Shown here in pieces: positions 24,943 through 48,034 of a stretch of DNA of 50,180 bases. Location of the stretch: the IMG/VR virus record IMGVR_UViG_3300021963_000185, positions 1 to 50,180 of that record; one strand, given 5' to 3'. Within the stretch, counting starts at the first letter, position 1; each line of letters starts with the position of its first letter. The position numbers were made by a program, and so were the translations under genes. This stretch comes from a virus. A model generated the notes under the pieces. It did no database searches and was not told the origin of the DNA. It saw only the letters and a list, made by a program, of their open reading frames with translations.

Positions 24943-24943
24943 T

Positions 24944-25744
24944 TTAAATTTCCGTATGTTGAGCAATGAAATCGAGCAACCGTTCAGCCGTTGTCGAGCC
25001 AACGACTGCAGCGTCGTTTCTGAGCCACCGCACAAACTCGTACCACTTAGCCTGCTGGTCTGGGCTGTCAAAAACAATTGTGTACTGCACAACTGCTTGC
25101 GGCCTCTCGCCTTGGCCTGAAACGGTTGAGCCTCTTACTGCAACATCTGATTGATTTGCGGAAGATGGAGCAACGATTCTGTTTTCCCCACCCGAATCTC
25201 TTGAAACAGTAAAAGAAGGAGATGGGACATCCTCGTCATTTTCATCCATATCTCCGGGTTGGGAAATCAATACAGGAGGGATGTAGGTTCCGGTTGACGA
25301 CAGTTCGCTACTGTTTTTGTCTATTTCCTGCTCGTATTCTGCTATTTCAAATTCGTCCCACCCAAGACCCTCTAGTAGTTCCGGGTAGTACTCGTTAACT
25401 TCTGTTATCAACTCAAACACCGCTTCATCGTCTGAGTATCCGAGTTCGACGGTTCTGTTGTCTGCAAGAGCAAAAGCGATTGCTCGTGAGTCGTCGCCAT
25501 CCAGATAGACAACTGCGATTTTATTCCACCCAAGCTCTTTTGCTGCCTCAAGTTGATGATTTCCGGCTATTACCGTTGCGGTCCCATCGTCATTTTTCTT
25601 TGCAACAATCGGCTTCACTTGACCAAACTCTGCATACGAAGCGACAATTGCTGGTATGTCGCCTATGCGCGGATTTTTGGGAAGGGGCACAAGCGTTTCT
25701 ATGTCAACTGCCATTTGTCGAAGAGAAGGATGTATCCCGTCCAT
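24944..25744 (-). CDS. ParB-like nuclease-domain protein (266 aa)
   Basis: ATG in a TAATG overlap. Residues 15-100 carry the ParB N-terminal domain: LPKNPR (21-26), GQVKPIV (41-47), IAGNHQLEAA (59-68), then RAIAFALADNRTVELG. The middle (about 150-210) is Ser-rich and disordered, and the C-terminus (VQYTIVFDSPDQQAKWYEFV, ERLLDFIAQH) is a small alpha/beta domain common to phage-encoded ParB-like proteins. It heads the ParB, small Cys protein, PAPS-reductase, ParB cassette. Partition seems unlikely without ParA, so a regulatory or modification role is more probable. Confidence 0.75.
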   Translation of the reverse strand: MDGIHPSLRQMAVDIETLVPLPKNPRIGDIPAIVASYAEFGQVKPIVAKKNDDGTATVIAGNHQLEAAKELGWNKIAVVYLDGDDSRAIAFALADNRTVELGYSDDEAVFELITEVNEYYPELLEGLGWDEFEIAEYEQEIDKNSSELSSTGTYIPPVLISQPGDMDENDEDVPSPSFTVSRDSGGENRIVAPSSANQSDVAVRGSTVSGQGERPQAVVQYTIVFDSPDQQAKWYEFVRWLRNDAAVVGSTTAERLLDFIAQHTEI

Positions 25745-31459: not shown

Positions 31460-31511
31460 CAATACCACGCCTTAATACTGCAGCCCACTCCAGTAGGCTA
31501 GTGTATAGCAC
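31460..31511. promoter_or_regulatory. Divergent intergenic region between terminase and head operon
   Basis: Only 52 bases separate two divergent operons, so promoters for both must lie here or inside the genes. On the plus strand TGTATAGC, a weak extended -10, ends four bases before the ATG at 31512; this would give a nearly leaderless message. The minus side has AAGG ten bases before the terminase ATG. No -35 box is clear on either strand. Confidence 0.3.
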
Positions 31512-31696: not shown

Positions 31697-33805
31697 ATGG
31701 CTTGGAATTCTCCGGTAAATAAATCTCTTGCTAATGAGAGCAAGAAAGAAATAGGCCCAGGAGCACCGGTAGCGACAAACCCTGGTTTGACTGGTAGGGC
31801 TTACCGAGATTCGTGGGATATTGAACGTGCCTATCGAGAAGGGATGCAGAAGGTCACATGGGTGGCACGATGCATTGACGCAATAGCTGGCAACCAAGCA
31901 AGATTGCCAATAATCCTAAGAAAAGACAACTCTCCAGACGGAGAGATTCTTTCTAAGAAGGCCTCCAACGATTCTGAGTTGATGGAGATTCTTAATACAA
32001 AGTCAAACATTGGAGAGAACTCTTTCATCTTTAGGTACAGACTTTCTTCCCAGATACTTTTGGGAACCCGTGGAGCCTTTATCGAAAAAGTAAGAGGACG
32101 CGATGGAGGAATAGTCGGGCTAAACCTTTTGCCTGCTCAATCAACTGCACCCATCCCGGATGCAAAGAAATTTGTTTCAGGTTATGAAGTAACGATGCCA
32201 TATGGCCAGAAAGTAATCCTGAAGCCAGAAGACGTTACATGGATTCGAAGACCGCACCCGCTCGACCCATACCTCTCCCTTACTCCGCTTGAAGCGTGTG
32301 GAGTAGCTGTAGAAATAGAAAATCTAGCCAAGCTTTACAACAGGAACTACCTGCTAAATGACGGCAGACCTGGCGGGTTGCTTGTGTTGCGCGGAGAAAT
32401 AGATGACGACGACAAGGAAGAACTACGCAGCAGATTCAGGGGCAATCTATCGCGCGCGGGATACACATCTGTTATTTCGTCGGACGATGGAGTTGACTAC
32501 GTAGACACATCAGCAAACCCAAGAGATGCTGCATACATACAGATGAGACAGTTGACCAAGGAGGAAATTCTTGCATCATTCGGAGTACCAGAATCAGTCA
32601 TTGGCAACGCCTCGGGAAGGACGTTTAGCAACGCTTCGGAGGAAATTCGTGTCTTTTGGATGGAAACGATGCTTCCCCATCTGGAGATTCTTTCACGGGG
32701 TCTAGATGAGCTGGACGACAAGAACTACGTAGATTTCGATACGAGCGAAGTTCCAATTTTGATGCTCTACAAGCAGGAGCGCCACCGCTACTTAATGGAC
32801 GAATTTCAAAATGGTCTGATAAGCAACAATGAATACAGAACTCAGTCTGGAAGAAAAGAAACAGAATCTGACCTTGCTGATTCTTTGCTTTTAAATCCGA
32901 ACCTTATTCCGATTGCAAACACAAAAAAGAAAATGGAAGACAAGGCAACCGCAAACGTTCCGGGTGCCGCAGGAATGCCAGGAATGCCAGGAATGCCACC
33001 AGGCGCTCCAGGAATGCCAGGAATGCCGGGAATGCCACCAGGCCCAGAGCAGGCAATTCCGGGAGTTGGCGGTCAGCCCCTTGACCCGAATACAATGGCC
33101 GGAGCGATGGCAGAGGTCGCAGGACAGGGCGGTGGAGAACTTGCTCAAACGCCAATACCAGGAATGCCTACACCCCCTCAGCCCGAAGCAATGCCGGCAG
33201 GCATGTCAACCGGCATGGAGCCCATGCCAGCAGGCGCTGCATCCGCAGAGAGCCAAGACATTCAGACAAAGTCAGAGCAAGAGCTGGAAATGCAGAGATG
33301 GGAAGAAATTCTCTACCGCAGTATTGAGAGGGTTCTTGAAAGACAGCAGCGTGTAGTACTGGAAAAGTCAAGTGGGGCAAAAGCGAAAAAAGCCCTAGTT
33401 GCTGGGACTCTAGACATACCATCAATACTTCAGTCCGAAACATGGGATAGACAGTTCGAAGACGACATCAAACCTGTGATAACAGCAATCATCAAGGAAT
33501 CCCAAGCTGCATCTGGTTCAAAGATTTCCAAGAAGTCAGCGAAAAATCATCTGATTGATTCCGACGTGGTCGCACAGGTTGAATCACAGATGGAAAGAAT
33601 TAAGTCTATTAACACGGAAATGTCATCTGAAATCACGAACATCATGCTCGCATCTCTCTCAATCCAAGGCGAAGACCAGCGCGCGAGCGCCTTTAGGTCA
33701 AATATCGTCTCTTTGTACACAAATCTCTTCGGAAAGAGACTTCCAGAGCTTGCTGAGGACGAAACAAGACGCGCTTGGGTGTTCGGTCAATACTTGACAA
33801 GGTAG
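31697..33805 (+). CDS. Portal protein, HK97-type with extended C-terminus (702 aa)
   Basis: ATG with AGGGA close upstream. Residues 30-410 match HK97-family portals: AYRDSWDIERAYREGMQKVT, VARCIDAIAGNQARLPIIL, LSSQILLGTRGAFIEKVRG, EDVTWIRRPHPLDPYLSLTP, and IQMRQLTKEEILASFGVPES. The dodecameric ring it forms is the vertex for DNA entry and tail attachment. Beyond residue 410 there is an unusual tail. A collagen-like Met/Pro/Gly repeat (GMPGMPGMPPGAPGMPG) spans about 425-450, more Pro-rich sequence runs to 530, and then a helical C-terminal domain reaches 702. The normal family length is 400-500, so the C-terminal domain is an extra module. The C-terminus keeps no RFSSG site. Confidence 0.85.
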   Translation: MAWNSPVNKSLANESKKEIGPGAPVATNPGLTGRAYRDSWDIERAYREGMQKVTWVARCIDAIAGNQARLPIILRKDNSPDGEILSKKASNDSELMEILNTKSNIGENSFIFRYRLSSQILLGTRGAFIEKVRGRDGGIVGLNLLPAQSTAPIPDAKKFVSGYEVTMPYGQKVILKPEDVTWIRRPHPLDPYLSLTPLEACGVAVEIENLAKLYNRNYLLNDGRPGGLLVLRGEIDDDDKEELRSRFRGNLSRAGYTSVISSDDGVDYVDTSANPRDAAYIQMRQLTKEEILASFGVPESVIGNASGRTFSNASEEIRVFWMETMLPHLEILSRGLDELDDKNYVDFDTSEVPILMLYKQERHRYLMDEFQNGLISNNEYRTQSGRKETESDLADSLLLNPNLIPIANTKKKMEDKATANVPGAAGMPGMPGMPPGAPGMPGMPGMPPGPEQAIPGVGGQPLDPNTMAGAMAEVAGQGGGELAQTPIPGMPTPPQPEAMPAGMSTGMEPMPAGAASAESQDIQTKSEQELEMQRWEEILYRSIERVLERQQRVVLEKSSGAKAKKALVAGTLDIPSILQSETWDRQFEDDIKPVITAIIKESQAASGSKISKKSAKNHLIDSDVVAQVESQMERIKSINTEMSSEITNIMLASLSIQGEDQRASAFRSNIVSLYTNLFGKRLPELAEDETRRAWVFGQYLTR
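32973..33042 (+). repeat. Short tandem repeats in the portal gene
   Basis: A 9-base unit close to ggaatgcca is repeated, giving the peptide pattern GMPGMPGMPPG twice in succession. The repeats lie in the linker between the portal ring domain and the C-terminal extension. Such repeats can change copy number by slippage. Confidence 0.7.
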
Positions 33806-33904: not shown

Positions 33905-34429
33905 ATGTCAAAATCCTCGGCAAACCCTGCAATTCAGTACAAAGCTGCCACTCAGGGTGCTATAAATCTTGACGAAGCCAAGGGCATAGTCGAATGCTTC
34001 GTAGCCGGAATTGGTAACAAGGACTCGGTCGGCGACGTTTGTGCGCCAGGTGCGTTCTCGAAGAGCCTGATGCGCCGGAAGCCAAGAGTCGTGTGGGGAC
34101 ACAACTGGAACGACCCAATCGGCAAAGTTCTTGAAATATACGAGGTACCACCGAACGACCCTCGCCTTCCAGGAAAGATGCGCTCGGCCGGCATCGGTGG
34201 ACTTTATGCACGAGTTCAGTTCAACCTTATGTCAGAAAAGGGAAAAGAAGCGTTTGCGAGCGTTGCTTTTTTTGGTGAGGAACAAGAATGGTCTATTGGT
34301 TATAAAACAATTAATGCCAAGTTCGACCAGCAGATGCAGGCAAACGTCTTGTACGAAGTTGAACTTTATGAAGTGAGCCCTGTTCTCCATGGAGCAAACC
34401 AACTCACAGGAACAATTTCTGTTAAGTCA
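33905..34429 (+). other. Prohead protease domain (HK97 / S78-like) of the polyprotein
   Basis: Residues 1-175. GIVECFVAGIGNKDSVGDV, APGAFSKSL, H66 in VVWGHNWNDPIG, S130 in EEQEWSIGYK and E153/E156 in YEVELYEVSPVLHGANQ follow the order His, Ser, acid of phage maturation proteases. Full-length for this family is about 180-220 residues, so the domain is complete. It follows the portal, its usual neighbour. It would cut scaffold and capsid, and probably the rest of its own chain. Confidence 0.8.
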
Positions 34430-37400
34430 GACGAAAACTCTGCCGTCGCCGTTATGGAAAGAGCTGTTAGCTCAATAGCGGACATCGGAAATGCCAATTC
34501 TTCAGAACTGAAAGAAGTTCTAGATGCGCTGAAGAAAATAGCTTCGTCTGTATCGGAGGACGAGAAGTGCGGACCAGGCATGCCACACATGCAAAGACCA
34601 GCGACGCCTTCCGGAATGCCTTCTGCACCAGCAACAGGACCAGCTCCACGTTCGGTTGTAAAACCAACTAGACCGTCTATCCCGGAAAACCCAATGGTCG
34701 TAGCGCTTCGCAGGGAGCTTGTTGCACGAACAGGTTCTAACATTATCGTTAGGTCAGCGGGTGACAATGTTGTTGTGTTTGACCGCGTGATGAGTGATGG
34801 AACTGCGTCTACATACAGGCTCGCTTATCATTACGCAAGTGGCGAGTTCATGTTCGGCAAGCCGGAAAAAGTTAGTGCCCAGACCGTCTACACACCAGAG
34901 ACTCCTGGAGCATCTGGAGATGCATACTGGGGCGATGACTACTCCGAAATGCCTAAGTCTCTAGGATTCGATGAATTCTGGGGTTCAGGGTTCGGAAGTG
35001 AAATCAACTTCCAGGCAGATACAGGAAATGCTTTGATGGGGGTGATAGAGAGCCTTCAGCAAATAATTGATGAAAAGTCCGAATATGTAATACCGGTCGA
35101 ACCGACAGAGGCCTTTGAGTTCAAGCAGATGATTGACCCAGTGCTTGAGTACTACAAAGCAGATGCGAGAGTAACTGAGGAGGGGATTGTAGTTAAGTCG
35201 GCACACAATCCAGAGCTAATTGAAGCTCTTGATGTCGCGACTAAGTCCGTACTGGGAAAAATCCGAAGGGGCATTGGCGCTGGAAGGCGTCTTGATGCTC
35301 CAAATATTGGCGGAGGAAAGGGTCGCAGTAGAGCGGCTAGAGCAATCGGCGCTGCTACTGGTGGTGTAGCTGGAAATCTAGACCCGTCCAAGATTTCAAT
35401 GAATGACCCAGATGGTGACGGCTGGGCAAAAGAAGGCTCAAAAAATCCAGTGTGGGTTGGCTTTAAGAAAGCTACACAAAAACTTACTGGTGGTGGCAAA
35501 AAGAAGCCATCAAAAGATGAGCAAAGAGCTCGTTCTGCGGTAAACGCAGACAGACCTGGTCCGCCACGTCCAGGCACACAGAGAGCATGGGACGCCCCAT
35601 CGGTGCCTGCACCGCCACGTCCAAGCAGGGTCACGTTGACCGACGACGCCGGCGCAAGACTGCGCGAAGCAAGCCGTCAGCGGGCAAGAGAGCTCGGCTT
35701 TGATAGAAGCGTTGACCCAGCACCGCCACGCCCTCGAAAGAAACTCACTAACCAGGTAACAAGAGCTCCTCGTCCTGGTGATGGGGGTAGAAAACCGTCT
35801 GGTGAATCGATAGCCAACGCAATACGGCGTGAAACATCCGCATCAAGCCCTGTCCTGGGTCAGCAGCTAGCCAACGATATATCTAAGTACGGCTACCCAG
35901 AAGAAATGTCAACCGATGATTTGATTAGAACCGTCGCTGATTTCAGAAGAGAGCTGACTTCAGCAAGAAGAGATTTTGAAAAACTCCAATCGGACAGGTT
36001 CTCCGGAAAAGATGTTCCTTCAATGGAAATCAAGAAGGCAAGACAGCGTATTGATTCGCTTCGCCAAAGAGCATCCGTATACTCCTCGGAAATTTCAAAA
36101 CGTGACAAAGTAAAAGGCAACGACAGATTCTCTTCAGGGAAAGCGGTAACTCCAGAAGCAAAGCGCATGAGAAGACATGCCCCAATTGGAACTACCGGTG
36201 AATTTGACCTTCCGGAAGAAATAGCTGCAAGAGAAAAACACGAAGCATTTGTAGAGGAATTCAAAAAGCAAAACGGTTTTTGGCGCGATATCCCAAGAGC
36301 CGGAACAGTGAACTCCATGAACACTTCAGAAGAATGGCAGCGCGCTCGGGAAATTTCTCACAACGTAGCAATTCGGGAATGGGAAGAGACAGAGTTAAAC
36401 AGAAGACCAAAAGATTTTAGCGAAAAAGCAAGAGCATCCGTCGACTATCTGACATGGTACGGAAACTTCGCGAAGAGAATGGGTGGCTACCTCGATAGGG
36501 AAGAGGCAAGCGAAAACATTACTGACGACGAGCTAAGCGGCGCAAGGGCTGCAGTACTTGAAGTACTTGCTGAAAAGAGAGCCGTACCAGGTTCGAGAGA
36601 AGCTCTATCAAACCTAGAAAAAATGATGGATGATGCTGGATTCGGCCCTAATGGTCGCCACGAGACACCATGGGGCGGAAGAAAGAGAACATCTGTTACG
36701 GGATTCTCTTCTGGGAGAACAATAGATAGAAATGTCATGAAGTCTTTGAAAGACGACGGATTGGCGCTAGATGACGACGATGTCGTTGCTATTTTGCTTC
36801 CCAACTCAGGGCTTATTGTCCACAAAACTCTCACTGCTCGCAAAGATGACAGTTCCCTAAACTGGAAAAACATTCTTGGCGACAGCAAGGTAGAGCCAAA
36901 GGACCCGACTTCGCCAAGGGCAATGATTCGTCTAGATGCTGAGGGCTTCCAAAAACTAAGCGATGCCATGGACGCGGCAAACTCTGAGTTCGTACCTGGA
37001 CAGCTTTTGCCGCCACACATCGGAACGATAAAAGATAAAGATTTCCCATACTCTTATCCACCATCTACAAGATTCTCATCTGGCAGTAAATATGCACCAG
37101 AAATAGAGGACGAGCTGTGGCTCGACTCTGAACTGGGCGGCAACAGAGCGGCAGACAGAATTAATACCGAAAACGTCGATATGGAGATAGTTCCATCTTC
37201 CGACATAGGCCTTGATGGGCCAGATGCGGGAGCATGGACTGTTGTAGGTATGTACCGAGGGGAAGATTATGGCTCCGTCGACTATATCTACGAGACAGAT
37301 ACCTTTGATTCTGTAGAAGAAGCAAGACGATTCATAGAAACATATGACAGGTTGATAGAGGAAGAAATTAGACCTGGAGACCCAGAGTTCTTCCTTGACA

Positions 37401-40400
37401 TAAATAATTACAATAGAAGCAACAAAATATCCCTTGATGATGACCTTGACTCTGCCATAGACAAAGCAGTGCAAACTAGGAAGGATAGAGAGAATGCTCC
37501 GTATGACTACGGCAGCCTTATTTCTTCTCTTCTTTCTGATAGGGCACTAAATGTTTTTGGTGATGGGGAATCACGGTTCTCTTCTGGGCGCAACAAGGCA
37601 GAAAGACGCCAAGACGTCAAGAGGGTCATGGCTACCAACATGGCAGATAGGAAAGTAAACCTAGGGATACTTTCTCGTCGCATGAAGGGAGAAACCCTGG
37701 ACGAGGTTGGTAGGGCATACGGTCTAGATAGAGGAACCGTTCGCCAAATGGAGATGCGGGAAATGAAGCGCCTCAGAGATGGTGCAACTCCAAGCGAGAT
37801 ACTCGCCTACAGAATGGAAGGACTCACCCTCGACGATATGAGCAGAATGCTCGGAATGTCTCGTGAAGATGTAAGAAGAATTGAGTCTAGAGAAATAGCA
37901 CGCATGAGGCTCGACGGGCGCGATGGAAGCGACGCAATATTCGAGGGACGCAAAGCTGGATTGAGTCGCGAATCAATAGAGAGGATAACCGGCCTATCTG
38001 CAGACGACATAGAGACAAAAGAGAGAAAAGGATTCGAGAGAGCCGTAACTCGCGAAGATGTTTCTTATCAAATATTTGACAAGTATGTAACAAACTTTGG
38101 CGAAGATGAACTAACCGATGCAGAACTCGCAGAGGAGCTGGGAGTTAGTGAAAGAATTGTTTCCGAGGTGCGCGCAGGAGCAAATAAGAACATACTCGAC
38201 GCCCGTCGCGACATGGATGAATACTACAGAAGCCTTCCGGAACCAACTGATGAAGAGCTTCAAGCAGAGGCCAATTACTACGCAGATAACTTCGCTAGAG
38301 AGCAGGGTTTCAGTTCCTACGGCGAATATGAGGAGTACCTCTCCAGTGTGGGCAAAGAAGAAGGCGGAGCAAGGCTGTCTTCTGGATTAGTTCGTCAAAT
38401 GACTATCGAAAATCCACTACTAATAGGAACGCTTGCTGGTATTGCTAGCTCTAAGATTCAGAGAAGAAGAAGAGAAAGACTCGACGAGGATGAAGAATAT
38501 CTCGACGACGATGACAACGACGAGAGATTTTCTTCCGGTGCAGGCAAGAGCAGCCTTACGCCCAGCCAAAAGGTTGGCCAAAGGGTGTTTGATGAAGCAT
38601 CCAAGATAGCCAAAGAAGATAAGAAAGACATTTTCGACACAATGGATGCACTCATCTTTGATGAGCGCTTCGATTCCGTTAACCGTGGGGAAAAGCTCGA
38701 CACAAATGAGATGTATGCTCATATCAATGCCCTTCTTTACCCGGAGGGTGCTAAAGAAAGCAAGAAGCGCAGACTCTGGAGAAGAGAAAGACTCTCCTCT
38801 GGCGGCTCTTCTAGCGAGATACGTAAAAAGAAGCGCGCAAAAATAAAGCAGAAGGCATGGTCGGAAGAAGACCTCCAAAGATTCCGCGATAGAAACATAC
38901 TCAAAGCCAAGACACGCCCAGGAAAACGCAAGAACGGCCCATCTGCAGAAGAGTTTTCTTCTGGAAGAAAGAGGATAGACACCGCTGGAAGTTCAGCGCT
39001 GACTGGAGCATTCTATGATGCCGACAACGAAAGACTTGTTGTCGGGTTCAACAAGGGTGGCGTCTATGCGTATGACGGAGTAACCCCAGGAGACATAGAA
39101 GAGTTGCACAATGCCGAAAGCAAGGGTGCAGCTATGGCTTCAATCAAGAAGAAATACAAGGGCGTAAGGCTGTCTGAAGCAGACGACAGCCTAAAAGCAA
39201 CTAAGCAGGGCGACGAGTGGGTCGTTAACCCAGATAATGAAACAACATATTCAATATCCGAAGACGGCGGTGAATTCTTTGTTTTAAGAACAACTGGAAG
39301 TTACGCACGTGATGGTGGACAGTCTGGCGATGAGTACTACCACCCAGAGTCTTTCAAGAATATGGACTCTGCGATGAAGTGGGTAGAGCAGGACTTCTTG
39401 CCGTCAATTACTCCAGAGCCGTGGGACGAGGACGACTACGACGTAGACAGATTCTCGTCAGGTGGACCAGTTCGTGCCGCAAATCTTATGCAGTTTGACA
39501 CTCGTAGAAGCAGACGCGCTAGCAACATGACATATGACCCGCAGGATGGTCGTGTTGGTGTTACCTACAACGACGGTAGTGAACGGTTTTTCTCAGAGGT
39601 CCCATACGAAGCAGCAAGTTCTGCTGGTAACCCAGCAAAAGATATAGACGATTTTATCGATGACCTGGAAAAAGGAAAAGTTGGCAGAGAGGGCGGAAGA
39701 TTTAGCTCTGGTGCTGGCTCGGTGCCAAGAACTGATTGGGACTATTCATATCAGAAGTTCCCGCCAACAGAAGAGCAGGCAGTCATTGCAGATGCGGTAG
39801 CAACTGGTGAGAACGTGATTGTAAGAGCATTTGCCGGTACTGGTAAAACTTCTACTCTTGTAACGATTGCTGAAAGACTAAAGCGTCAAGACCCGAAGAA
39901 GAGAATCGTCTACATGGCGTTCAACAAGGACATTCAGCTTGAAGCTGAGGGCAGATTCCCTGGGAATACAGAGTCTCGAACTGGTGACTCAATCTCCTGG
40001 AACTGGGTCAAGCAGACGATGGGTAAAGCTTTCACTGACAGAATGGGCAGTAACGCACCTGAAAGAGTTAAATCCAAGGGGACGCGCAACAAAGATATAT
40101 CTGTTCATTTCAAGATTAAGCAGATGGAACATCCAGATGGTCTTAAAGACTCAACAACAGGAAGCCCTGTAGTTCTTGATGCGGTTGACGTAACAAAACT
40201 TGTAAGAGAGGCTGTTAAGCAGTTCCTTATCTCGGAAGATGATGAAATAGGCGCGCAGCACTTCAAGACAATCCAGAATGTTCCGCCCGTTCTGTTGGGT
40301 CACGCAAAAGCTATTTGGGATGACATGAACGACCCAGATGGCGTAATGAAGCTCGACAACTCAGTTTTCACAAAGATGTGGGCCCTATCGAGACCGCAGC

Positions 40401-43400
40401 TCAGCGAAGGTGTTGGACTATTTAAAGGAAAGCCGTCCGTAATATTCTTTGACGAAGCTCAGGACATCAACCCAGTAATGGCAAGAGTTATGCGCGAGCA
40501 GAACATCCAAGTCGTATTCGTTGGAGACAGCTACCAGGCTATTTACGGATTCCGTGGAGCATCGGACAGTCTAGAAAAAGCGGAAGCCGCATACGACCTT
40601 CCGCTCACTGGCTCATGGAGATTTGACAGCAAAATAGCTGGATATGCAAACAGATTCCTAGCATACATGGGTTCAAAAAACAGAATTCGTGGAGTCGGCA
40701 AGCCAGGCAATGGCGTTGTTGAACCAGAGTCGATGGTTGACCCAGATGCAATCTTGACAAGAAGCAACGGCGGAGCGCTCCGTGCAGTTGTGGAGCAAAT
40801 ACAGCTTGGCAGAACTGTAGGAACTTCTGAGAACTTCAAGAAGGACCTAACGAGATTTGCGTGGCACGCAGTAATGCTCAAGGCTGGTAAACAAGTAAAA
40901 AATCCACATGAGGAGCTAGAAGAATTCTCTTCATGGAAAGAGGTTCAGGATGCAGCCAGCGCCGAGGATGCAAGCCCGCGACTGAGAATGCTTGTGCAGC
41001 TATTCAATGACACGCCAAACATTATCGACATACTAGACCAGGTCGTTGTTGGGGGCAAGCTCAAGGGGGAGTCCGGTGGCGGCTCCGGCAAGAGAATTCT
41101 GCCGAGCGAAATAACAGATGGCTTTGAGATGTCTATAGACCCAGGCAGCATGGGTAAATGGGCAGGAGATAAGAAAACGCAGGTTTTGTATAAGAACGGA
41201 AAGCTGTTCTTGCAACTCCCATACACCAAATACCCTTCATCTGATTCGGATGCAAAGTTTGAGTGGCAAAAGCAAAATTTAAATCCGATAGGTAAAGTCC
41301 AAAAAGGTAAACCGGACGAAACAAATGGCAAATATGCAATCTGGGTTGACGCAACTCCAGAACAGGCAGCAGAGTTACTCTCTGGCATAACTTCAGGTGA
41401 TGCTCAAGAAGTTGACGTCATGGTAATGACGGCACACAGGTCAAAAGGTCTTGAATTTGGGAGAGTTCGGCTTTATGGAGATTTCCCAAGACCAAGACTC
41501 AACAAGAAGACCAACGAGATGGAGTACCCATCACCAGAGGAGCAGAGACTTCAGTATGTTGCGTCTACGAGAGCAATACGCGAACTAGACCCAGGCCCTA
41601 CAGACTGGATATACGGGGAAACATCAGAAGACGATGAAAGCCCAGATGTACCGGGTGGTTTCTCGTCTGGTGCAAGAGGCAACCCGATACCAAGCGCTAT
41701 TGGTAAGGATATGGTCCTAGAAGATGGCGGAACACTTGAAGACAATATGTTCAAGGGCACATACATCGCCGACTTTAATGGTGGAAAGATGGTCATCCAG
41801 CCAGCTGGAAGAGATTCGTGGGCTGTTTACCGTGCCGACTTCAGTGGTGGAGAAGATGGACCTTCTTACAGTTTCAGTTACGGACCGCCATCCGACGATG
41901 CAGAGTTTGGCTCACTGGCAGATGCGTACGAACATGTCCTGAACTACGTCAAGGAAAACGATATTTCTCTGGACTCTCTGGATGGCACTAGACGGTCAAA
42001 AGGTAGCGAGTCTTTCTCTGAGGCAAAAATTTCCAATTCAGATTCTGGAATTGCACAGAGATTTAGCTCTGGCCGCAAAGATGCGGATAAGAGACTTAAA
42101 GAAGCAAGAAAGTCTTCATCTAAGAAAGGCGACAAAGCAGAAGGCAAAGATTCGCGCCTAGATAGAGCAGTAGATGCTTACCTGAATTATGTGTTCGGCG
42201 CAAATCAATCATCTCGTCTTTCTTCGGGACGCAGTCAGGAAAACAATGGCGTAAGCAAGCGTGATGCTGAAGACGTTGAAATCTTGGCTAACTATTACAT
42301 GAATTCATATGGAGGATATGACGACGAGCTCGGGGACTGGCTAGACAGCAATCCAGGAAAGACAGAGAACGACTACATCTCCAGCCAGGAATTCTCGGAG
42401 AGAGTCGATGAGATGGAAAACGTTATGGCCGACGCTGGAGACAGTATGGCTGAAAACCGTCTTGATGAATATGCAAACCGCAGATTAGGTTCTGGGGCTA
42501 ACTCAGAAAGACCATCAGACGAAGATATCTACAATCTTAGAATGTCCGGCCCAACTCTTGAAGAGGTTGGCGAGCAGTACGGAATGACCCGCCAGGAAGT
42601 TCGAGCTGCCGAAATGCGCCACATAAGAAGAATGCGTGATGAAGGTTTTGAGTCAACTGGGACACCAACTTCGAGAAGAGAGCGTCGCTTGTCTTCTGGC
42701 GCTAACAGAGGAGGGATAAAAAGGTCGACAAACTCTGGAGTAGCGAGAAAAGATGGGAAGGTTGTCCTTGCGAGAAGAACCGAAGTCTCACAAGGTTGGA
42801 CTGGTGCCCCAGAAGAATATCTGAAGCCAGATGATGACTTTTTTGATGCAGAATCAGCATCAAGAATACTCAACAACCCCCTAGAGAGCTATAACGACCA
42901 AACCGGATGGCCGGTTCCGGCGAAAGAATTCTTCCAAAGTCTTGTTCTAGGCAGACCAGGCCAAGACGTAGATGTCATGGATGAAGACGGGAAATTCACC
43001 ACAGATGGACGTCTTAGAATCAAGAGTCTATTAACCGGCTCTGAGGCTGCAAAAGAGAAGTTTATAGACAGAATCGAATCTGGCGAAGTTTCTCATATGC
43101 AAGCAGTATCCGCAATGACTCTGCTTGAAAAAATCGGCATGAACGTCGGGGATGCTTCTGACCACATGTTCGAGACATTCGGATTCAAGTCGGCACCAGT
43201 TTGGGTTTCTGGCTTGGATGCAAGAGACCCGGACTACGACCTAATTAGGGGTGAAGTTAACTGGTCCCCGCTAACAGAAGAACAGTGGGTTGATGAAATC
43301 AAGCAGGCCTATGTAGACAACGCCAACATAAGTCAGTACGCAAAGAACAGAAGAGACTGGGTAACCAGAAATAAGGGCAAGTCAGAGAAAGATTATGAGG

Positions 43401-46400
43401 CGAGCCCTGAGTTTTTGCAAGACGCAAAACGGGCATATCTCTACAACAAGGGAGTTATGGGCCCTGCCGAAGTATATTCTCACCCATACTCACATTTCTA
43501 TGCAATGAGAGAAGACCAGAGAGATGCAGTAAAGAAGAACTGGCTTTCTCAGAACCCAGGAAAGACAGACGCTGACTACGACGAGGCGATGTCATGGGGT
43601 GGCGAAGGCGACCCAGACCTATCTCCTTTAGTTGGTGGATGGGGTTTTGGGGACCCACGAAAAGCCGCGTCAACAACTCTACAACCAGAAGCTGGCTCTC
43701 CGACTAAGAGGCCAGTATCACCTCAGCCATCGTCTTCGACTAAGTCTTCGCTATCTCCAGACACAACCAGAAGGCTATTCAAGGCGTTCAAGAGAGATGT
43801 AATACTTTCTGCTGCCGGAATAAATGAAGGAACAAACAGAGAAAAAGCAAAGAAACTCTCTGAGCTTGTCGGGTTTGACATCAATGAAGAGACATTCGAC
43901 AGATACAGAAAAGACGGCGTATCCCCACGTGTGGTAATAGAATTACTACGTAAAGGCCATATCAAAAACTTAAGTGGCATAGGTAATGCTGACCGGGCAA
44001 ACGACGACCTCAATGCGCTGGTTCGAGAGGCGAATAAATCCGTCTTTGTATCTACGGCTTTTGGAAGAATCAGAGAGGCGGCCAGGGCGGCAGGTCTTTC
44101 TGACGAATCTTTCGGAAGAAGCCTATGGAAAATGCTTAGCAAGGACCACGAAGTACACGTATTTGGCAAAGGTGACAGAGGTGTTCCAAGAAGCGGAATG
44201 GCAGATGGCGGAATACCAGCGACGTTCAACTTGAGCAAACTTGACCTACTAGGAGAGAGTGAACTAACAACTCTCGTTGATGGTCTAAACAAGATGGCCG
44301 AATCTGAAGGCTCTTCGGCAAGATTCTCCATAGATGAGATATTCCCAAGAGACGGTGACGCATTCGCTGACCCATTCGGTGAGTCGAAGATAAGAATGAG
44401 CAGCGGTGCTTCTCCGGTAAAGGGTCAACGCTTTGTAGCCAAGCCCAAGGAAAACAGATTGACTGCTGCAGCCAGGGAGACAGCAGAAATGCGCTTCTCC
44501 TCCGCAGCTAGACCTACGTACAGAACAGCCGGGGGTGGCATAGACAAAGATGCTATGTCTGCCGACATCGACGATGCAATACGCGGTCCAAGACTTGGTG
44601 CTGTCGCCATAACTACCGCCAACGCAGACAACGTTGGCAGAGAACAGATTGACAACCTTGCAAGAGCAATAACACTGCGTCAACACATAGCCGACATGTT
44701 CCCAAGCGTTGTTAACGATAGAACTGGTGTCTCCTACGATATAGAGCCACTACTTATCGAACAAGGGCTAGACCCCAAGGACGCGGAAAAGCTCACTGAC
44801 CTGGTTAATGACCTTGATGACTACATCGATGGCATCGTCGGGCAGTTCGAAGAAGAGGGAGACAAGCTCGAATCTGGACTGCGCCGCATGAACGACATGC
44901 TTGATGAAGTTGAAAGTCTTCGCAAGTACAGAAAAGAAACAATCGAGAAGTATGGCGAAGATGATGCAAGAAACCTGGTAGCAAGACTTGACGACAAAAT
45001 CAACAAGCTAACAACTTCAATAGACGAGGAATACCAGGCGACAATCGGCAGCAATAGAACAAATATGGCAAAACTCAGAGATGAGGCGCTTGCTCTTGTT
45101 GATGACAACCCCGGATTTGAAAAGCCCAAAGCTGGGTCAGACGGTCCTCGCCTATCTAGTGGTGCGAACTCACTTTCATCGAAGCTTATAGCCCTTGAAA
45201 TGTCGATGGGGCGCTCTGCTGAGGGCGGTCTTCCCAAGTACACCCCTGTTAGCAAGATTGACTTCAATGTTCCATCTGGAACAAGACTTTCTTCTGGTAA
45301 AGCGGACGAATGGTACGAAAACCTAACCGCAAAGTTGATTGAACAAATAGAAAAAGTTCAGGCATCAGGTGGAGACACGTGGCAGTTCCCTTGGCACAGA
45401 ACAACTTCCATGCCGAAGAACGGGATATCGAACCACGTATTCAGCGGCATGAACCCATTTGTTTTGATGCTTTCAGCAGATGAAAAGGGCTATACCAGCA
45501 ACAAATGGGCCACATATAACCAGTGGCAAAGCGTTGGTGGTCAGGTAAGAAAAGGCGAAAAAGGTACACAAATTCTGGCCCCAGTTTTCAAAAAGGTAAA
45601 AGACCCAGATACCGGCAAAGAGGAAACAAAACTAGTCAACTGGAGAACCTATTCGGTATTCAACCTTGAACAAATTGAAGGCATAAACCCAGACGACTAT
45701 AAAGACGACCCGAAAGAGCTTCTCGACGAAGCGGCGCGTGTAGAGAAGGTTGACAAGGCCTTCTCTGCGGTTGGGGCAGAAATAGAAACGGGTGATGGCT
45801 CAAGCGCACATTACAGCCCATCAAAAGACAAGGTAGTTATGCCTCCTTTTGCCTACTTCAAGACACCAGAGGGCTACTATGCGACTCTCGGTCATGAGTT
45901 GGTCCACTGGACCGGGCATACATCCAGACTAGATAGACCCAATATGAACCGCTTTGGGACGCCGGAGTACGCACGGGAGGAATTGGTTGCAGAATTAGGA
46001 GCAGCATTCCTAATGGCAAACTTCGGACTCTCTGCAGAGCCTAGAGAAGACCATGCCCACTATCTGGCCAACTGGCTCAAGGTTCTGCGCGAAGAGCCCA
46101 AAGCCCTCCAAGAGGCAGCTAGAGAAGCGCAAAAAGCTTCAAAACTGCTTATCGAAAAGATGAGGCAAGTGCTGGAAGATGCAGGCGTAGCGGAAGAGAC
46201 CATCGAAGATGTGGTCGAAGAAAAAACCGCAAAGGTAGGAATGTTTTCTGGGTCAGAGAGTAATTCTCTACTACAAGTAGCAGGGGCTCTCCCCGCCTAC
46301 CTCCGCATGGAAGTTGAGGCAGCAATTAAAAGCACCGCCTCAGAAGAGGTTCTATCAACTAAGGTTATTAACAGAATTTCAAAAACAATTGAACTTCTAG

Positions 46401-46429
46401 AGACATTCTCGAAGCAAAAAGGTATTTGA
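33905..46429 (+). CDS. Giant polyprotein: prohead protease, HTH modules, KTSC, SF1 helicase, ArdC (4174 aa)
   Basis: ATG with a strong AAAGGAG four bases upstream; no stop in 12.5 kb. In order: HK97-type prohead protease (1-175); low-complexity and unknown regions with a DPDGDG calcium-like motif (501-506); sigma-region-4-like helix-turn-helix repeats (1229-1489); KTSC domain (1688-1760); complete UvrD/Fbh1-type helicase (1937-2584); another sigma-like HTH (2865-2927); a 560-residue region with W-x3-NPGKT-type repeats (2933-3496); coiled coil (3535-3748); ArdC antirestriction protein with HELVH (3799-4174). Domain boundaries coincide with (R)(F/L/M)SSG motifs: residues 741, 933, 1056, 1224, 1490, 1541, 1629, 1683, 1849, 1932, 2585, 2719, 2771, 2928, 3497, 3749, 3794, plus degenerate 698, 2860, 3530. 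I infer cleavage at these sites by the N-terminal protease. It is far larger than typical phage head proteins. Confidence 0.85.
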   Translation: MSKSSANPAIQYKAATQGAINLDEAKGIVECFVAGIGNKDSVGDVCAPGAFSKSLMRRKPRVVWGHNWNDPIGKVLEIYEVPPNDPRLPGKMRSAGIGGLYARVQFNLMSEKGKEAFASVAFFGEEQEWSIGYKTINAKFDQQMQANVLYEVELYEVSPVLHGANQLTGTISVKSDENSAVAVMERAVSSIADIGNANSSELKEVLDALKKIASSVSEDEKCGPGMPHMQRPATPSGMPSAPATGPAPRSVVKPTRPSIPENPMVVALRRELVARTGSNIIVRSAGDNVVVFDRVMSDGTASTYRLAYHYASGEFMFGKPEKVSAQTVYTPETPGASGDAYWGDDYSEMPKSLGFDEFWGSGFGSEINFQADTGNALMGVIESLQQIIDEKSEYVIPVEPTEAFEFKQMIDPVLEYYKADARVTEEGIVVKSAHNPELIEALDVATKSVLGKIRRGIGAGRRLDAPNIGGGKGRSRAARAIGAATGGVAGNLDPSKISMNDPDGDGWAKEGSKNPVWVGFKKATQKLTGGGKKKPSKDEQRARSAVNADRPGPPRPGTQRAWDAPSVPAPPRPSRVTLTDDAGARLREASRQRARELGFDRSVDPAPPRPRKKLTNQVTRAPRPGDGGRKPSGESIANAIRRETSASSPVLGQQLANDISKYGYPEEMSTDDLIRTVADFRRELTSARRDFEKLQSDRFSGKDVPSMEIKKARQRIDSLRQRASVYSSEISKRDKVKGNDRFSSGKAVTPEAKRMRRHAPIGTTGEFDLPEEIAAREKHEAFVEEFKKQNGFWRDIPRAGTVNSMNTSEEWQRAREISHNVAIREWEETELNRRPKDFSEKARASVDYLTWYGNFAKRMGGYLDREEASENITDDELSGARAAVLEVLAEKRAVPGSREALSNLEKMMDDAGFGPNGRHETPWGGRKRTSVTGFSSGRTIDRNVMKSLKDDGLALDDDDVVAILLPNSGLIVHKTLTARKDDSSLNWKNILGDSKVEPKDPTSPRAMIRLDAEGFQKLSDAMDAANSEFVPGQLLPPHIGTIKDKDFPYSYPPSTRFSSGSKYAPEIEDELWLDSELGGNRAADRINTENVDMEIVPSSDIGLDGPDAGAWTVVGMYRGEDYGSVDYIYETDTFDSVEEARRFIETYDRLIEEEIRPGDPEFFLDINNYNRSNKISLDDDLDSAIDKAVQTRKDRENAPYDYGSLISSLLSDRALNVFGDGESRFSSGRNKAERRQDVKRVMATNMADRKVNLGILSRRMKGETLDEVGRAYGLDRGTVRQMEMREMKRLRDGATPSEILAYRMEGLTLDDMSRMLGMSREDVRRIESREIARMRLDGRDGSDAIFEGRKAGLSRESIERITGLSADDIETKERKGFERAVTREDVSYQIFDKYVTNFGEDELTDAELAEELGVSERIVSEVRAGANKNILDARRDMDEYYRSLPEPTDEELQAEANYYADNFAREQGFSSYGEYEEYLSSVGKEEGGARLSSGLVRQMTIENPLLIGTLAGIASSKIQRRRRERLDEDEEYLDDDDNDERFSSGAGKSSLTPSQKVGQRVFDEASKIAKEDKKDIFDTMDALIFDERFDSVNRGEKLDTNEMYAHINALLYPEGAKESKKRRLWRRERLSSGGSSSEIRKKKRAKIKQKAWSEEDLQRFRDRNILKAKTRPGKRKNGPSAEEFSSGRKRIDTAGSSALTGAFYDADNERLVVGFNKGGVYAYDGVTPGDIEELHNAESKGAAMASIKKKYKGVRLSEADDSLKATKQGDEWVVNPDNETTYSISEDGGEFFVLRTTGSYARDGGQSGDEYYHPESFKNMDSAMKWVEQDFLPSITPEPWDEDDYDVDRFSSGGPVRAANLMQFDTRRSRRASNMTYDPQDGRVGVTYNDGSERFFSEVPYEAASSAGNPAKDIDDFIDDLEKGKVGREGGRFSSGAGSVPRTDWDYSYQKFPPTEEQAVIADAVATGENVIVRAFAGTGKTSTLVTIAERLKRQDPKKRIVYMAFNKDIQLEAEGRFPGNTESRTGDSISWNWVKQTMGKAFTDRMGSNAPERVKSKGTRNKDISVHFKIKQMEHPDGLKDSTTGSPVVLDAVDVTKLVREAVKQFLISEDDEIGAQHFKTIQNVPPVLLGHAKAIWDDMNDPDGVMKLDNSVFTKMWALSRPQLSEGVGLFKGKPSVIFFDEAQDINPVMARVMREQNIQVVFVGDSYQAIYGFRGASDSLEKAEAAYDLPLTGSWRFDSKIAGYANRFLAYMGSKNRIRGVGKPGNGVVEPESMVDPDAILTRSNGGALRAVVEQIQLGRTVGTSENFKKDLTRFAWHAVMLKAGKQVKNPHEELEEFSSWKEVQDAASAEDASPRLRMLVQLFNDTPNIIDILDQVVVGGKLKGESGGGSGKRILPSEITDGFEMSIDPGSMGKWAGDKKTQVLYKNGKLFLQLPYTKYPSSDSDAKFEWQKQNLNPIGKVQKGKPDETNGKYAIWVDATPEQAAELLSGITSGDAQEVDVMVMTAHRSKGLEFGRVRLYGDFPRPRLNKKTNEMEYPSPEEQRLQYVASTRAIRELDPGPTDWIYGETSEDDESPDVPGGFSSGARGNPIPSAIGKDMVLEDGGTLEDNMFKGTYIADFNGGKMVIQPAGRDSWAVYRADFSGGEDGPSYSFSYGPPSDDAEFGSLADAYEHVLNYVKENDISLDSLDGTRRSKGSESFSEAKISNSDSGIAQRFSSGRKDADKRLKEARKSSSKKGDKAEGKDSRLDRAVDAYLNYVFGANQSSRLSSGRSQENNGVSKRDAEDVEILANYYMNSYGGYDDELGDWLDSNPGKTENDYISSQEFSERVDEMENVMADAGDSMAENRLDEYANRRLGSGANSERPSDEDIYNLRMSGPTLEEVGEQYGMTRQEVRAAEMRHIRRMRDEGFESTGTPTSRRERRLSSGANRGGIKRSTNSGVARKDGKVVLARRTEVSQGWTGAPEEYLKPDDDFFDAESASRILNNPLESYNDQTGWPVPAKEFFQSLVLGRPGQDVDVMDEDGKFTTDGRLRIKSLLTGSEAAKEKFIDRIESGEVSHMQAVSAMTLLEKIGMNVGDASDHMFETFGFKSAPVWVSGLDARDPDYDLIRGEVNWSPLTEEQWVDEIKQAYVDNANISQYAKNRRDWVTRNKGKSEKDYEASPEFLQDAKRAYLYNKGVMGPAEVYSHPYSHFYAMREDQRDAVKKNWLSQNPGKTDADYDEAMSWGGEGDPDLSPLVGGWGFGDPRKAASTTLQPEAGSPTKRPVSPQPSSSTKSSLSPDTTRRLFKAFKRDVILSAAGINEGTNREKAKKLSELVGFDINEETFDRYRKDGVSPRVVIELLRKGHIKNLSGIGNADRANDDLNALVREANKSVFVSTAFGRIREAARAAGLSDESFGRSLWKMLSKDHEVHVFGKGDRGVPRSGMADGGIPATFNLSKLDLLGESELTTLVDGLNKMAESEGSSARFSIDEIFPRDGDAFADPFGESKIRMSSGASPVKGQRFVAKPKENRLTAAARETAEMRFSSAARPTYRTAGGGIDKDAMSADIDDAIRGPRLGAVAITTANADNVGREQIDNLARAITLRQHIADMFPSVVNDRTGVSYDIEPLLIEQGLDPKDAEKLTDLVNDLDDYIDGIVGQFEEEGDKLESGLRRMNDMLDEVESLRKYRKETIEKYGEDDARNLVARLDDKINKLTTSIDEEYQATIGSNRTNMAKLRDEALALVDDNPGFEKPKAGSDGPRLSSGANSLSSKLIALEMSMGRSAEGGLPKYTPVSKIDFNVPSGTRLSSGKADEWYENLTAKLIEQIEKVQASGGDTWQFPWHRTTSMPKNGISNHVFSGMNPFVLMLSADEKGYTSNKWATYNQWQSVGGQVRKGEKGTQILAPVFKKVKDPDTGKEETKLVNWRTYSVFNLEQIEGINPDDYKDDPKELLDEAARVEKVDKAFSAVGAEIETGDGSSAHYSPSKDKVVMPPFAYFKTPEGYYATLGHELVHWTGHTSRLDRPNMNRFGTPEYAREELVAELGAAFLMANFGLSAEPREDHAHYLANWLKVLREEPKALQEAAREAQKASKLLIEKMRQVLEDAGVAEETIEDVVEEKTAKVGMFSGSESNSLLQVAGALPAYLRMEVEAAIKSTASEEVLSTKVINRISKTIELLETFSKQKGI
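37589..38371 (+). other. Helix-turn-helix repeat module, sigma-70 region-4-like
   Basis: Residues 1229-1489, bounded by motifs at 1224 and 1490. At least four successive HTH units are visible. At about 1262 is ETLDEVGRAYGLDRGTVRQM, then EMREMKRLR. At about 1306 is LTLDDMSRMLGMSREDVRRI, then ESREIARMR. Weaker units start near 1349 (ESIERITGLSADDIE) and 1403 (AELAEELGVSERIVSEV). The first two follow the sigma region 4.2 pattern TL-x-EVG-x3-G-x-(T/S)R-x2-(V/I)RQIE, closing in a basic helix. DNA or RNA polymerase binding is inferred. Confidence 0.65.
38966..39448 (+). other. KTSC-domain module
   Basis: Residues 1688-1848, bounded by motifs at 1683 and 1849. The first part (SSALTGAFYDADNERLVVGF, GGVYAYDGVTPGDIEEL, AESKGAAMASIKKKYKGVRL) fits the KTSC domain, a small beta domain first noted at the C-terminus of lysyl-tRNA synthetases and common in phages; its function is poorly known. 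The second part (DEWVVNPDNETTYSISEDGG, ESFKNMDSAMKWVEQ) is a separate small alpha/beta unit. The next module (1854-1931) has a looser KTSC-like pattern (MTYDPQDGRVGVTYNDGS). Confidence 0.6.
39713..41656 (+). other. SF1 (UvrD/Fbh1-type) helicase module
   Basis: Residues 1937-2584, bounded by motifs at 1932 and 2585. Helicase motifs in order are Q-motif PPTEEQAVI, Walker A AGTGKT (1977-1982), motif Ia YMAFNKDIQ, motif II DEAQD (2183-2187), motif III FVGDSYQAIYGFRG, motif IV GSWRFDSKIAGYANRFL, motif V TAHRSKGLEFGRVRLYGDF and motif VI LQYVASTRA. All motifs are present in about 650 residues, so this is a complete, probably active 3'-5' helicase. Delivery in the virion or action in replication are both possible. 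Confidence 0.85.
42497..42685 (+). other. Second sigma-region-4-like HTH module
   Basis: Residues 2865-2927, between RLGSG (2860) and RLSSG (2928). The 63-residue unit is almost only one HTH: PTLEEVGEQYGMTRQEVRAA followed by EMRHIRRMRDEG. It aligns closely with the first unit of the module at 1262. It would be released as a tiny DNA-binding peptide if both flanking sites are cut. Confidence 0.6.
42701..44392 (+). other. Large unassigned module with W-x3-N-P/K-G-K repeats
   Basis: Residues 2933-3496. The motif W-x3-N-(P/K)-G-K-(T/S)-x2-D-Y occurs at W3152 (WVTRNKGKSEKDY) and W3213 (WLSQNPGKTDADY). A third copy sits at W2812 in the earlier module 2776-2859 (WLDSNPGKTENDY). A helical region follows (LFKAFKRDVILSAAGINEGT, KKLSELVGFDI). 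I do not recognise a family; it may bind DNA or act as a capsid-internal structural protein. Confidence 0.4.
44507..45148 (+). other. Coiled-coil module
   Basis: Residues 3535-3748. Long heptad-like helices (EQIDNLARAITLRQHIADMF, LTDLVNDLDDYIDGIVGQFE, ESGLRRMNDMLDEVESLRKY, ARLDDKINKLTTSIDEEYQA) with abundant charge suggest an elongated coiled coil. Such segments often serve as internal scaffold cores in phage heads. It lies between a degenerate RFSSA site and RLSSG. Confidence 0.5.
45299..46429 (+). other. ArdC-type antirestriction module
   Basis: Residues 3799-4174. The N-terminal ArdC domain (ADEWYENLTAKLIEQIEKVQ, GDTWQFPWHRTTSMPKNGIS, LSADEKGYTSNKWATYNQWQ, GGQVRKGEKGTQILAPVF, WRTYSVFNLEQIEGI) binds single-stranded DNA in the plasmid protein. 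The following zincin domain has HELVHWTGH (H3997, H4001) and a likely third ligand E4030 in EELVAELGAAF. ArdC from plasmids protects incoming single-stranded DNA from restriction enzymes. Here the module is complete (about 300 of 376 residues). The position at the C-terminus of a head-associated polyprotein suggests virion delivery, as with P1 Dar proteins. Confidence 0.8.
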
Positions 46430-46516: not shown

Positions 46517-48034
46517 ATGGACAAAGAAATGCAGAACGCCCTAAGTATTGACGCCGACGGCAATATACTCAAATGCGCCAAGGGTGCCGACGCTTCTGCC
46601 TGCGGTTTCGAGGCTGGCTCAAAGATTTGTGGCAAATGTGGCGCTATTCCTACTCAGGTAAAAATTGTGCCCGTTGACGACGAGGAAATGGACGAAGAAG
46701 AAGAAATGACCGACGAAATGCCTGAAGAAGGCATGACGGACGAAGAGATGCCAGAAGAAGAAGAAATGCCGGAGGACGAAGAGGAAGAGGAAGAGGAAGA
46801 ATCCGATTCCGAAGACGAAGAGTCCATGGACGAAGAGAAGACGGCGTATTACAAAACTTACGGGTACGACAAGTACGTAAAGAAGTATGGCAAGAAGCCT
46901 TGGATGCCAGACATGGAAGATGATGAAGAGGACATGGAAGAATCCATGGACGAAAAAATGATGTCATCCAACAGCGGCAGCTCTCCGCGAAAGCAGAGAA
47001 GAATGGACCGCATGAAGGGCATGGACGAAGAGATGCCCGAAGACGAAGACATGGACGAAGAAATGCCAGAAGACGAAGAGCTCGATGACGAGGAAGAGAT
47101 GAAAGGCGCAATGGACCGCGCCTACAAGCGTCGCCTTGTTTCACTGGGCGTCAAGTCTGCTGACGTTGGTTCTTCCGGTTACCTGTGCGCCATCGACCGC
47201 AAGGCATATGCTGGCCATGTTCCTGTATGCGATAACTGTGAAGGCGGATGCGTTTCCGAAAAGGGAATGCCAGGCCTAATTCACGTAGAGGGAATGGCAG
47301 AAGAACTGATTGACGGTTCTGTTGTTGCATCTGGATATGCAGTGGCTAATGACACCTTTGTAGTTGACGTACAGAAAAAGTCAGGAAAGACATACGAAGT
47401 TTTCTACGAAGGCTCGACTGGTGAGCTTCTTGGCTTCCATAAGCTCGAAGACACTCTCAGCATCAAGTCTGCGCTTGATGACCTCAGAGTTATAACTCTG
47501 TTTGAGGCCGCCGACATTGCCGTCAAGGCAATAGATGGACACATCGTTGGAGTTGAGGCAGATTCTTTCGAAGGAATAGATGCTTTTGCTGTTGAGGTCG
47601 ACGGCTTTGACGGCAAGTCATACGATGTTTTTGTTTCACTGGACGGGGAAGTCCTCGGTTACGACAAGTACGAGATGGACGAAGCCGAAGAGATAGAAGC
47701 AGAAGCTGCAGAGATTGCCCTCAAGCGTGCGTTTAGTGACGACAAGAGAGAGGCTATGGCTAAAGAGGGAACCGCGATGGCGGATGGCTCCTACCCAATA
47801 GCAGGCGAAGAGGACCTAAAGAACGCAATTCAGGCATTTGGCAGAGCGAAGGACAAAGAAGCAACAAAACGTCACATCATGAAGCGGGCAAAGGAAATGG
47901 GCAAAGAAAACCTAATTCCAGCCAACTGGGTAATGGGCGGAGATTCAGAAAAGAAGTCTTCCGAAGTTGACGCAGAGCTGATGGCCTCACTAATTGAGTT
48001 CGAGCTTCTTCAGGCCGAAACAGAAATCAACTAA
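46517..48034 (+). CDS. Acidic Zn-ribbon / PepSY-like head-associated protein, DUF6582-like C-terminus (505 aa)
   Basis: ATG with AGGAG ten bases upstream. The N-terminus has a zinc-ribbon pattern C20, C29, C38, C41 (LKCAKGADASACG, KICGKCG). Residues about 55-205 are extremely acidic low complexity with Met/Pro (EEMPEDEEEEEEEE). A second cysteine set is C224, C238, C241, C245. Two PepSY-like beta units follow (TYEVFYEGSTGELLGFHKLE; SYDVFVSLDGEVLGYDKYEM). The C-terminal 70 residues (DGSYPIAGEEDLKNAIQAFG, TKRHIMKRAKEMGKENLIP) match the DUF6582-like motif frequent near phage capsid genes. A scaffold or capsid-assembly function is plausible because of its acidity and its place after the protease. 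Confidence 0.65.
   Translation: MDKEMQNALSIDADGNILKCAKGADASACGFEAGSKICGKCGAIPTQVKIVPVDDEEMDEEEEMTDEMPEEGMTDEEMPEEEEMPEDEEEEEEEESDSEDEESMDEEKTAYYKTYGYDKYVKKYGKKPWMPDMEDDEEDMEESMDEKMMSSNSGSSPRKQRRMDRMKGMDEEMPEDEDMDEEMPEDEELDDEEEMKGAMDRAYKRRLVSLGVKSADVGSSGYLCAIDRKAYAGHVPVCDNCEGGCVSEKGMPGLIHVEGMAEELIDGSVVASGYAVANDTFVVDVQKKSGKTYEVFYEGSTGELLGFHKLEDTLSIKSALDDLRVITLFEAADIAVKAIDGHIVGVEADSFEGIDAFAVEVDGFDGKSYDVFVSLDGEVLGYDKYEMDEAEEIEAEAAEIALKRAFSDDKREAMAKEGTAMADGSYPIAGEEDLKNAIQAFGRAKDKEATKRHIMKRAKEMGKENLIPANWVMGGDSEKKSSEVDAELMASLIEFELLQAETEIN

Follow-up and report, generated by a model that had tools for sequence, protein, structure and literature searches.

An N-terminal prohead protease and a recurrent module-boundary motif in the giant proteins of an uncultured myophage lineage: a candidate self-processing polyprotein

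The window analysed here is a 50.2-kb stretch of DNA from an uncultured phage (50,180 nucleotides; IMG/VR record IMGVR_UViG_3300021963_000185, positions 1 to 50,180). It encodes a tape measure protein (TMP) as well as a tail sheath, which makes the phage a myovirus. The terminase gene, on the minus strand, is followed on the plus strand by the portal gene and then by a giant open reading frame (ORF), here called A, which is open over 4174 codons and reads as a protein of 4174 aa (Table 1). The initial annotation had described A as one ORF joining a prohead protease of the Peptidase_S78 (S78) family to unrelated domains. This description is borne out by the Pfam domains of A and by the same layout in relatives. 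For two shared modules without assigned function (alignments A2 and A3), profile searches turned up no convincing relative, either structural or in Pfam.

The chance that so large an ORF is an assembly artefact is close to nil. Its frame can be broken by one homopolymer base, as in an independent contig (L081/L235) that is 99.96% identical to the window and has a one-base insertion near codon 108 of gene A. Because this is a single homopolymer base in a near-identical contig, the window's intact frame is the credible one. An artefact is, moreover, already refuted by the relatives: many samples have yielded independent contigs, dozens in all, with the same architecture.

Table 1. Features of the window discussed in the text (aa, residue number; for motifs, that of the hydrophobic residue)
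Feature	Position	Strand	Basis
TMP, two RFSSG	12375..17624	-	PHROG 167
TMP motif 2 RFSSG, aa 775-779 (776), Pro/Gly-rich linker	15288..15302	-	motif scan
TMP motif 1 RFSSG, aa 38-42 (39)	17499..17513	-	motif scan
Terminase large subunit	30140..31468	-	domain search
Portal protein	31697..33805	+	domain search
Polyprotein A, N-terminal S78 protease + modules	33905..46429	+	ORF, Pfam
Peptidase_S78 domain, aa 28-171	33986..34417	+	Pfam 3.7e-9, alignments, AF2/Foldseek
Motif 1 RFSSG, aa 742	36125..36139	+	motif scan
Motif 2 GFSSG, aa 934	36701..36715	+	motif scan
Motif 3 RFSSG, aa 1057	37070..37084	+	motif scan
Motif 4 RFSSG, aa 1225	37574..37588	+	motif scan
Sigma70 region-4-like / HTH module, aa 1255-1376	37667..38032	+	Pfam Sigma70_r4 at about aa 1255-1335
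Motif 5 RLSSG, aa 1491	38372..38386	+	motif scan
Motif 6 RFSSG, aa 1542	38525..38539	+	motif scan
Motif 7 RLSSG, aa 1630	38789..38803	+	motif scan
Motif 8 EFSSG, aa 1684	38951..38965	+	motif scan
KTSC domain, aa 1696-1745	38990..39139	+	Pfam
Motif 9 RFSSG, aa 1850	39449..39463	+	motif scan
Motif 10 RFSSG, aa 1933	39698..39712	+	motif scan
UvrD-type SF1 helicase module, about aa 1963-2561	39791..41587	+	Pfam
Motif 11 GFSSG, aa 2586	41657..41671	+	motif scan
Motif 12 RFSSG, aa 2720	42059..42073	+	motif scan
Motif 13 RLSSG, aa 2772	42215..42229	+	motif scan
Motif 14 RLSSG, aa 2929	42686..42700	+	motif scan
Motif 15 RMSSG, aa 3498	44393..44407	+	motif scan
Motif 16 RLSSG, aa 3750	45149..45163	+	motif scan
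Motif 17 RLSSG, aa 3795	45284..45298	+	motif scan
ArdC N domain (ArdcN), aa 3803-3919	45311..45661	+	Pfam
MPTase-PolyVal zincin domain, aa 3947-4073	45743..46123	+	Pfam
Gene C, acidic protein	46517..48034	+	C-terminus homologous to GMA6, DalanDe protease C-termini
Gene B, second giant ORF, N-terminal part, cut by window end	48051..50180	+	HExxH at about 49704

Downstream of A lie gene C and, beginning about 1.6 kb past A, gene B. The N-terminal half of the gene C protein is acidic and of low complexity, while about aa 403-473, at its C-terminus, match the C-termini of the GMA6 and DalanDe protease proteins at 56-62% identity. This likeness looks as if cargo had been inserted within an ancestral protease gene; a scaffold role for gene C is a guess. 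The HExxH peptidase motif is conserved in every B examined. Elsewhere in the window, two patterns were seen by eye. The C-terminal end of the TMP (12375-12900, minus strand) carries HxxGxAxD...HLH, a pattern that recalls M15 peptidases, and adjacent genes at 23639-25744 (minus strand), with SGGKDS-type and ParB-like starts, are reminiscent of an IbrA/IbrB pair.

The S78 domain of A scores 37.4 bits against a curated Pfam cutoff of 21 (E 3.7e-9). His66, Ser130 and Glu156, which we take to be the catalytic residues of the family, are invariant among relatives and align to HK97 gp4. An AF2 model of the core, built from a wide alignment, reached a pLDDT of about 93. Its best PDB match in Foldseek was T4 gp21 (probability 1.00, E 9e-3, TM 0.38/0.51), followed by herpesvirus assemblins, and against BFVD it gave 128 matches at E<=0.001, many of them named prohead proteases. 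The modelled N-terminal domain of A thus has the Assemblin/SH-clan fold. The gene lies between the portal gene and the major capsid gene (81440-82771 in contig G001). Residue 24 of the protease was considered as a specificity pocket, being Glu in 31/33 proteases of the R/K-motif lineages and Gln in 9/9 of those with a G motif, and was dropped as shared ancestry: further G-motif lineages (G020, G026 and G027) keep Glu.

The feature that sets A apart is a sharp linear motif of 5-6 residues, [FLM]SSG with a preferred residue ahead of the hydrophobic one. We counted 17 copies, the number first reported, preceded by R in 14, G in two and E in one; composition shuffles of A averaged 0.36 copies and never exceeded 3. 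Every SSG in A (17/17) has F, L or M ahead of it, although these residues make up only 13% of the protein. Across A, B and the TMP of the window the figure is 19/19, against 0/17 in the remaining window ORFs. The SSG is written with 15 different codon triples among the 17 copies of A, so that conservation acts at the level of the peptide, in agreement with the earlier remark that synonymous codons differ between copies. The initial annotation also mentioned three degenerate copies; near-motifs present in A are RFSG (698), RLGSG (2860) and RFSSA (3530). The initial annotation was sound about the motif in A, and narrower than the real system, since it missed the TMP and, in relatives, B. Likewise, its estimate of some 20 products agrees roughly with A, where 17 sites predict 18; the motif system is wider. 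That SSG is invariant where the module alignments begin was set aside as evidence because the segments had been cut there, making the argument circular.

Relatives were collected through an S78 domain search of IMG/VR, which returned 540 matching stretches, with 80 loci kept. Pieces of 25 contigs were examined, together with the whole or almost the whole of several longer ones. In dozens of distinct IMG/VR contigs the S78 domain heads a giant ORF with several motifs at varying positions. The relation of motifs to domains was assessed on eleven giant proteins (A, A2 and B) drawn from eight genomes. Not one of their 139 motifs falls inside a Pfam envelope, against 33 expected and a minimum of 15 among 20000 permutations. 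Local homology between divergent proteins also ends near motifs about three times as often as expected, with 193 of 959 breakpoints within 10 aa of a motif (mean 67, maximum 102 by chance). By the initial annotation, homologs that do not keep the motif at domain boundaries would refute its reading; on both counts they do keep it there.

The modules between the motifs are mobile. The helicase stands ahead of ArdC in the window, G001, G003, G010 and G006, and behind it in G024 and G005; in all seven of these A proteins the ArdC match starts 7-13 aa past a motif, and in the split G019 protein 22 aa past one. An RNase_T cassette extends from motif to motif in the A of G001 (3137-3419) and in the B of G003 (1812-2112), and occurs also in the B of G010. 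In G014, one cassette has been copied between the phage's own A and B, with 71% identity. Comparison of the sequences indicates that cassettes bounded by motifs are the units in which modules change order or pass from one protein to another. In two relatives A is interrupted at or near a motif: L154 (G014) has an A7 homopolymer frameshift just after GLSSG, and L168 (G019) an in-frame TAA a few codons ahead of RLSSG. Gene fission at the motif was not adopted for these cases, as assembly error, frameshifting or readthrough may also explain them.

The motif clusters in A, B and TMP, three gene families, and is scarce elsewhere; in four long contigs its density in these genes is 14-52 times that of other ORFs. 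The B proteins of relatives carry 2-9 copies, downstream of the part inside the window. In the TMP, a site is found at aa 36-39 in most R/K lineages, with a second in a Pro/Gly-rich linker around aa 560-780. Further large ORFs bear the motif in G014 (1204 aa), in G026 (2069 aa) and in G030/G029 (two giant ORFs), and up to four giant ORFs with the motif of the lineage occur in one contig. The major capsid protein was considered as a cognate substrate and rejected: in the GFAS and GMRSR clades it has no cognate motif, and in the SSG clades it shows just [QH]L[ST]S[RS]E (LSSRE), which is conserved but independent of the clade residue.

Between lineages, the motif changes, and it changes jointly across genes. 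The window lineage has R ahead of the hydrophobic residue, G013/G014/G021 have G, G012 has S and further lineages have K or K/R, and, where available, B and TMP show the same preference as the A of their lineage. The residue in A predicts that in B and TMP with a fit reached by 0/20000 label permutations, in a test that takes no account of shared ancestry. The rest of the site drifts as well. G026/G027 have GFAS[RG] in A, with PGFASGG in the TMP and GLASN in the B of G027; G020 has GFASN/GFASSG in A and GFASSSG in the TMP; and G029/G030 (L281, L282, L294, L298-L301) have GMRSR in four giant ORFs, namely A, B and a further pair (2517 and 2281 aa). The site sequence thus tracks across A, B and TMP but not the major capsid protein. 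Joint drift in unlinked genes points to a shared trans-acting reader of the site, a pattern that a passive linker would not leave.

The motif and the fusion are also lost together. Two marine MAG contigs (L303 and L305) have the terminase, portal and S78 genes in the window's order, with 75% identity in S78. There the S78 is a free protein of 438-444 aa with gene C directly next and no cargo, B is absent from the stretch examined, and no repeated motif was found, TMPs included. A separate family of giant ORFs with the same helicase (L237-L270) lies on contigs where no S78 of this type was detected; its linkers differ and are often Pro-rich, and the repeated motif is missing, so the notion that all giant helicase ORFs share the motif is wrong. 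Among the cultured relatives GMA6, Gray, Cantare, DalanDe and Gilgamesh, no repeated motif was found and the protease is unfused or C-terminal. L303-L305, which bear genes of this phage family, sit in bacterial MAGs (Gammaproteobacteria, Phycisphaerae), and are probably mis-binned phage contigs. In Streptomyces phage Gilgamesh (L136), gp48 is an unannotated protein of 4624 aa between portal and protease.

A protease in the same chain, a recurrent motif at module boundaries and a site sequence that tracks across proteins are among the traits of a self-cleaving viral polyprotein. From these comparisons, the site is likely read by one trans-acting phage factor and is most probably a protease cut site, with the fused S78 enzyme as the leading candidate cutter and self-processing as the best reading. 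The whole explanation, which we regard as probable, is that the myophage makes A as a single chain with an N-terminal prohead protease, that the S78 enzyme cuts this chain at x-[FLM]-S-S-G, and that the same protease cuts B and the TMP in trans at the clade-specific site. Cutting would free the protease and about 17 modules (HTH, KTSC, helicase, ArdC/zincin and others of unassigned kind). HK97 gp5 is cut between K103 and S104, and its sequence there reads TFNK/SLGS at residue 104. The S-x-G on the primed side resembles [FLM]/S-S-G, which makes the bond between the hydrophobic residue and the first Ser the favoured guess; the products would then most likely begin with SSG. A single translation product would bring protease and cargo to the prohead in fixed ratio, and the freed cargo would probably be ejected into the host with the DNA, virion delivery of A being suggested by its genomic context.

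Several points speak against S78 as the cutter of all these proteins. The major capsid protein, its classical substrate, lacks a cognate motif in the GFAS and GMRSR clades; the TMP is not a head protein, and its cutting by a prohead protease would be unusual; and the covariation of Glu24/Gln24 failed in other lineages. The conserved HExxH of every B could itself be the cutter, and this leads to the strongest rival, which we nevertheless judge unlikely: a zincin, either the N-terminal HExxH of B or the ArdC-linked MPTase, cuts the motifs, leaving capsid maturation as the sole task of the fused S78. In its favour, the motif is missing from relatives that have no B and no cargo, and the available text of Iyer et al. 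2017 (PMC5512222) proposes release of polyvalent-protein domains by zincins. However, the ArdC zincin was not detected on the motif-bearing contigs G013, G021 and G020 (fragments of 43-48 kb), so it is less likely to be needed, and the enzyme fused to the cargo in all A proteins is S78 and not a zincin.

Boundary placement and covariation would also follow if a phage factor such as a scaffold or chaperone read the motif as a docking or sorting tag, with no cleavage, and a capsid targeting sequence does package T4 internal proteins (PMC7411985). This seems rather improbable, as the motif lies inside a tail tape measure protein besides the head-side polyproteins, about 17 copies between modules would be a poor design for a tag and the T4 targeting sequences are terminal and cleaved off. 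The pure capsid packaging tag raised as an alternative by the initial annotation is likewise disfavoured by the motif in the TMP. Its other alternative, SSG as a flexible linker only, kept through repeated cassette duplication and recombination, has in its favour the position between domains, the linker-like look of SSG and the recombination of cassettes at motifs. It is nonetheless very improbable, given the hydrophobic residue at every SSG of the window's A and TMP, the differing codons, the covariation of the preceding residue in unlinked genes, and the GMRSR of other clades, which is not linker-like.

Polyproteins are a hallmark of RNA viruses, whereas large DNA-phage polyproteins have so far been suggested by analogy, through the polyvalent proteins. 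In the present case, sequences from dozens of contigs are enough to read off the protease, the sites and substrates likely to be its own, and the co-evolution of these. On balance, we think that a widespread uncultured myophage lineage makes its virion cargo as RNA-virus-style polyproteins, processed by a phage protease at a site that co-evolves with its substrates, and that site-bounded cassettes are traded between them. If so, this would explain how many proteins could be delivered in fixed ratio, the motifs would mark the boundaries of many anti-host modules of unassigned kind, and protease-site pairs of differing specificity would become available to compare.

Our literature search returned no described case of a phage polyprotein, and no N-terminal prohead protease with tandem boundary sites. 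The closest concept comes from Iyer et al. 2017 (PMC5512222), whose available text defines polyvalent proteins, draws the analogy to RNA-virus polyproteins and proposes release by embedded peptidases. As described there, polyvalent proteins resemble A in joining many unrelated domains per chain, with ArdC and MPTase, beside packaging genes; A has the same traits of several unrelated effector or nucleic-acid domains and a terminase/portal packaging context. They differ in that their assemblin-like peptidase is always C-terminal, by that account, and N-terminal in A. The same portions of the paper describe neither a repeated boundary motif, nor a site that recurs in the TMP and in another giant protein, nor drift of a motif between clades.

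The HK97-type prohead protease and the S78 domain of A are of the same family, with His/Ser/Glu aligned to gp4, adjoining the portal gene and upstream of the capsid gene. The HK97-type enzyme, however, is normally free, at about 200-450 aa, whereas in A it heads a 4174-aa cargo chain. In SPN3US (gp245), phiKZ (gp175) and T4 (gp21), one protease trims many head and ejected proteins at a short motif, which in SPN3US is AXE, sometimes with several motifs per propeptide (PMC10052503, PMC7411985). Their substrates are separate proteins with propeptides, whereas the sites of A part functional modules of one chain. Phage P1 DarA, according to the available text of PMC12810830, is processed by the protease Pro during head assembly, as is DdrB in head assembly by the summary in the consulted portion of PMC5512222. 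These are anti-restriction or virion-internal proteins that undergo processing, as proposed for A; those texts present single processing events, with no fused prohead protease described.

The cultured relatives are Gordonia phages GMA6, Gray and DalanDe, Brevibacterium phage Cantare and Streptomyces phage Gilgamesh, with about 37-46% identity in portal and S78; the capsid proteins of GMA6 and Cantare are 48-49% identical to those of this family. They share with it large genes between portal and capsid, but keep them as separate genes or, as in DalanDe (gp27), have the protease at the C-terminus. Polyvalent proteins are known already, and so is the trimming of head proteins by prohead proteases; what is new is the N-terminal protease fusion together with tandem boundary sites that are common to other proteins and drift by lineage.
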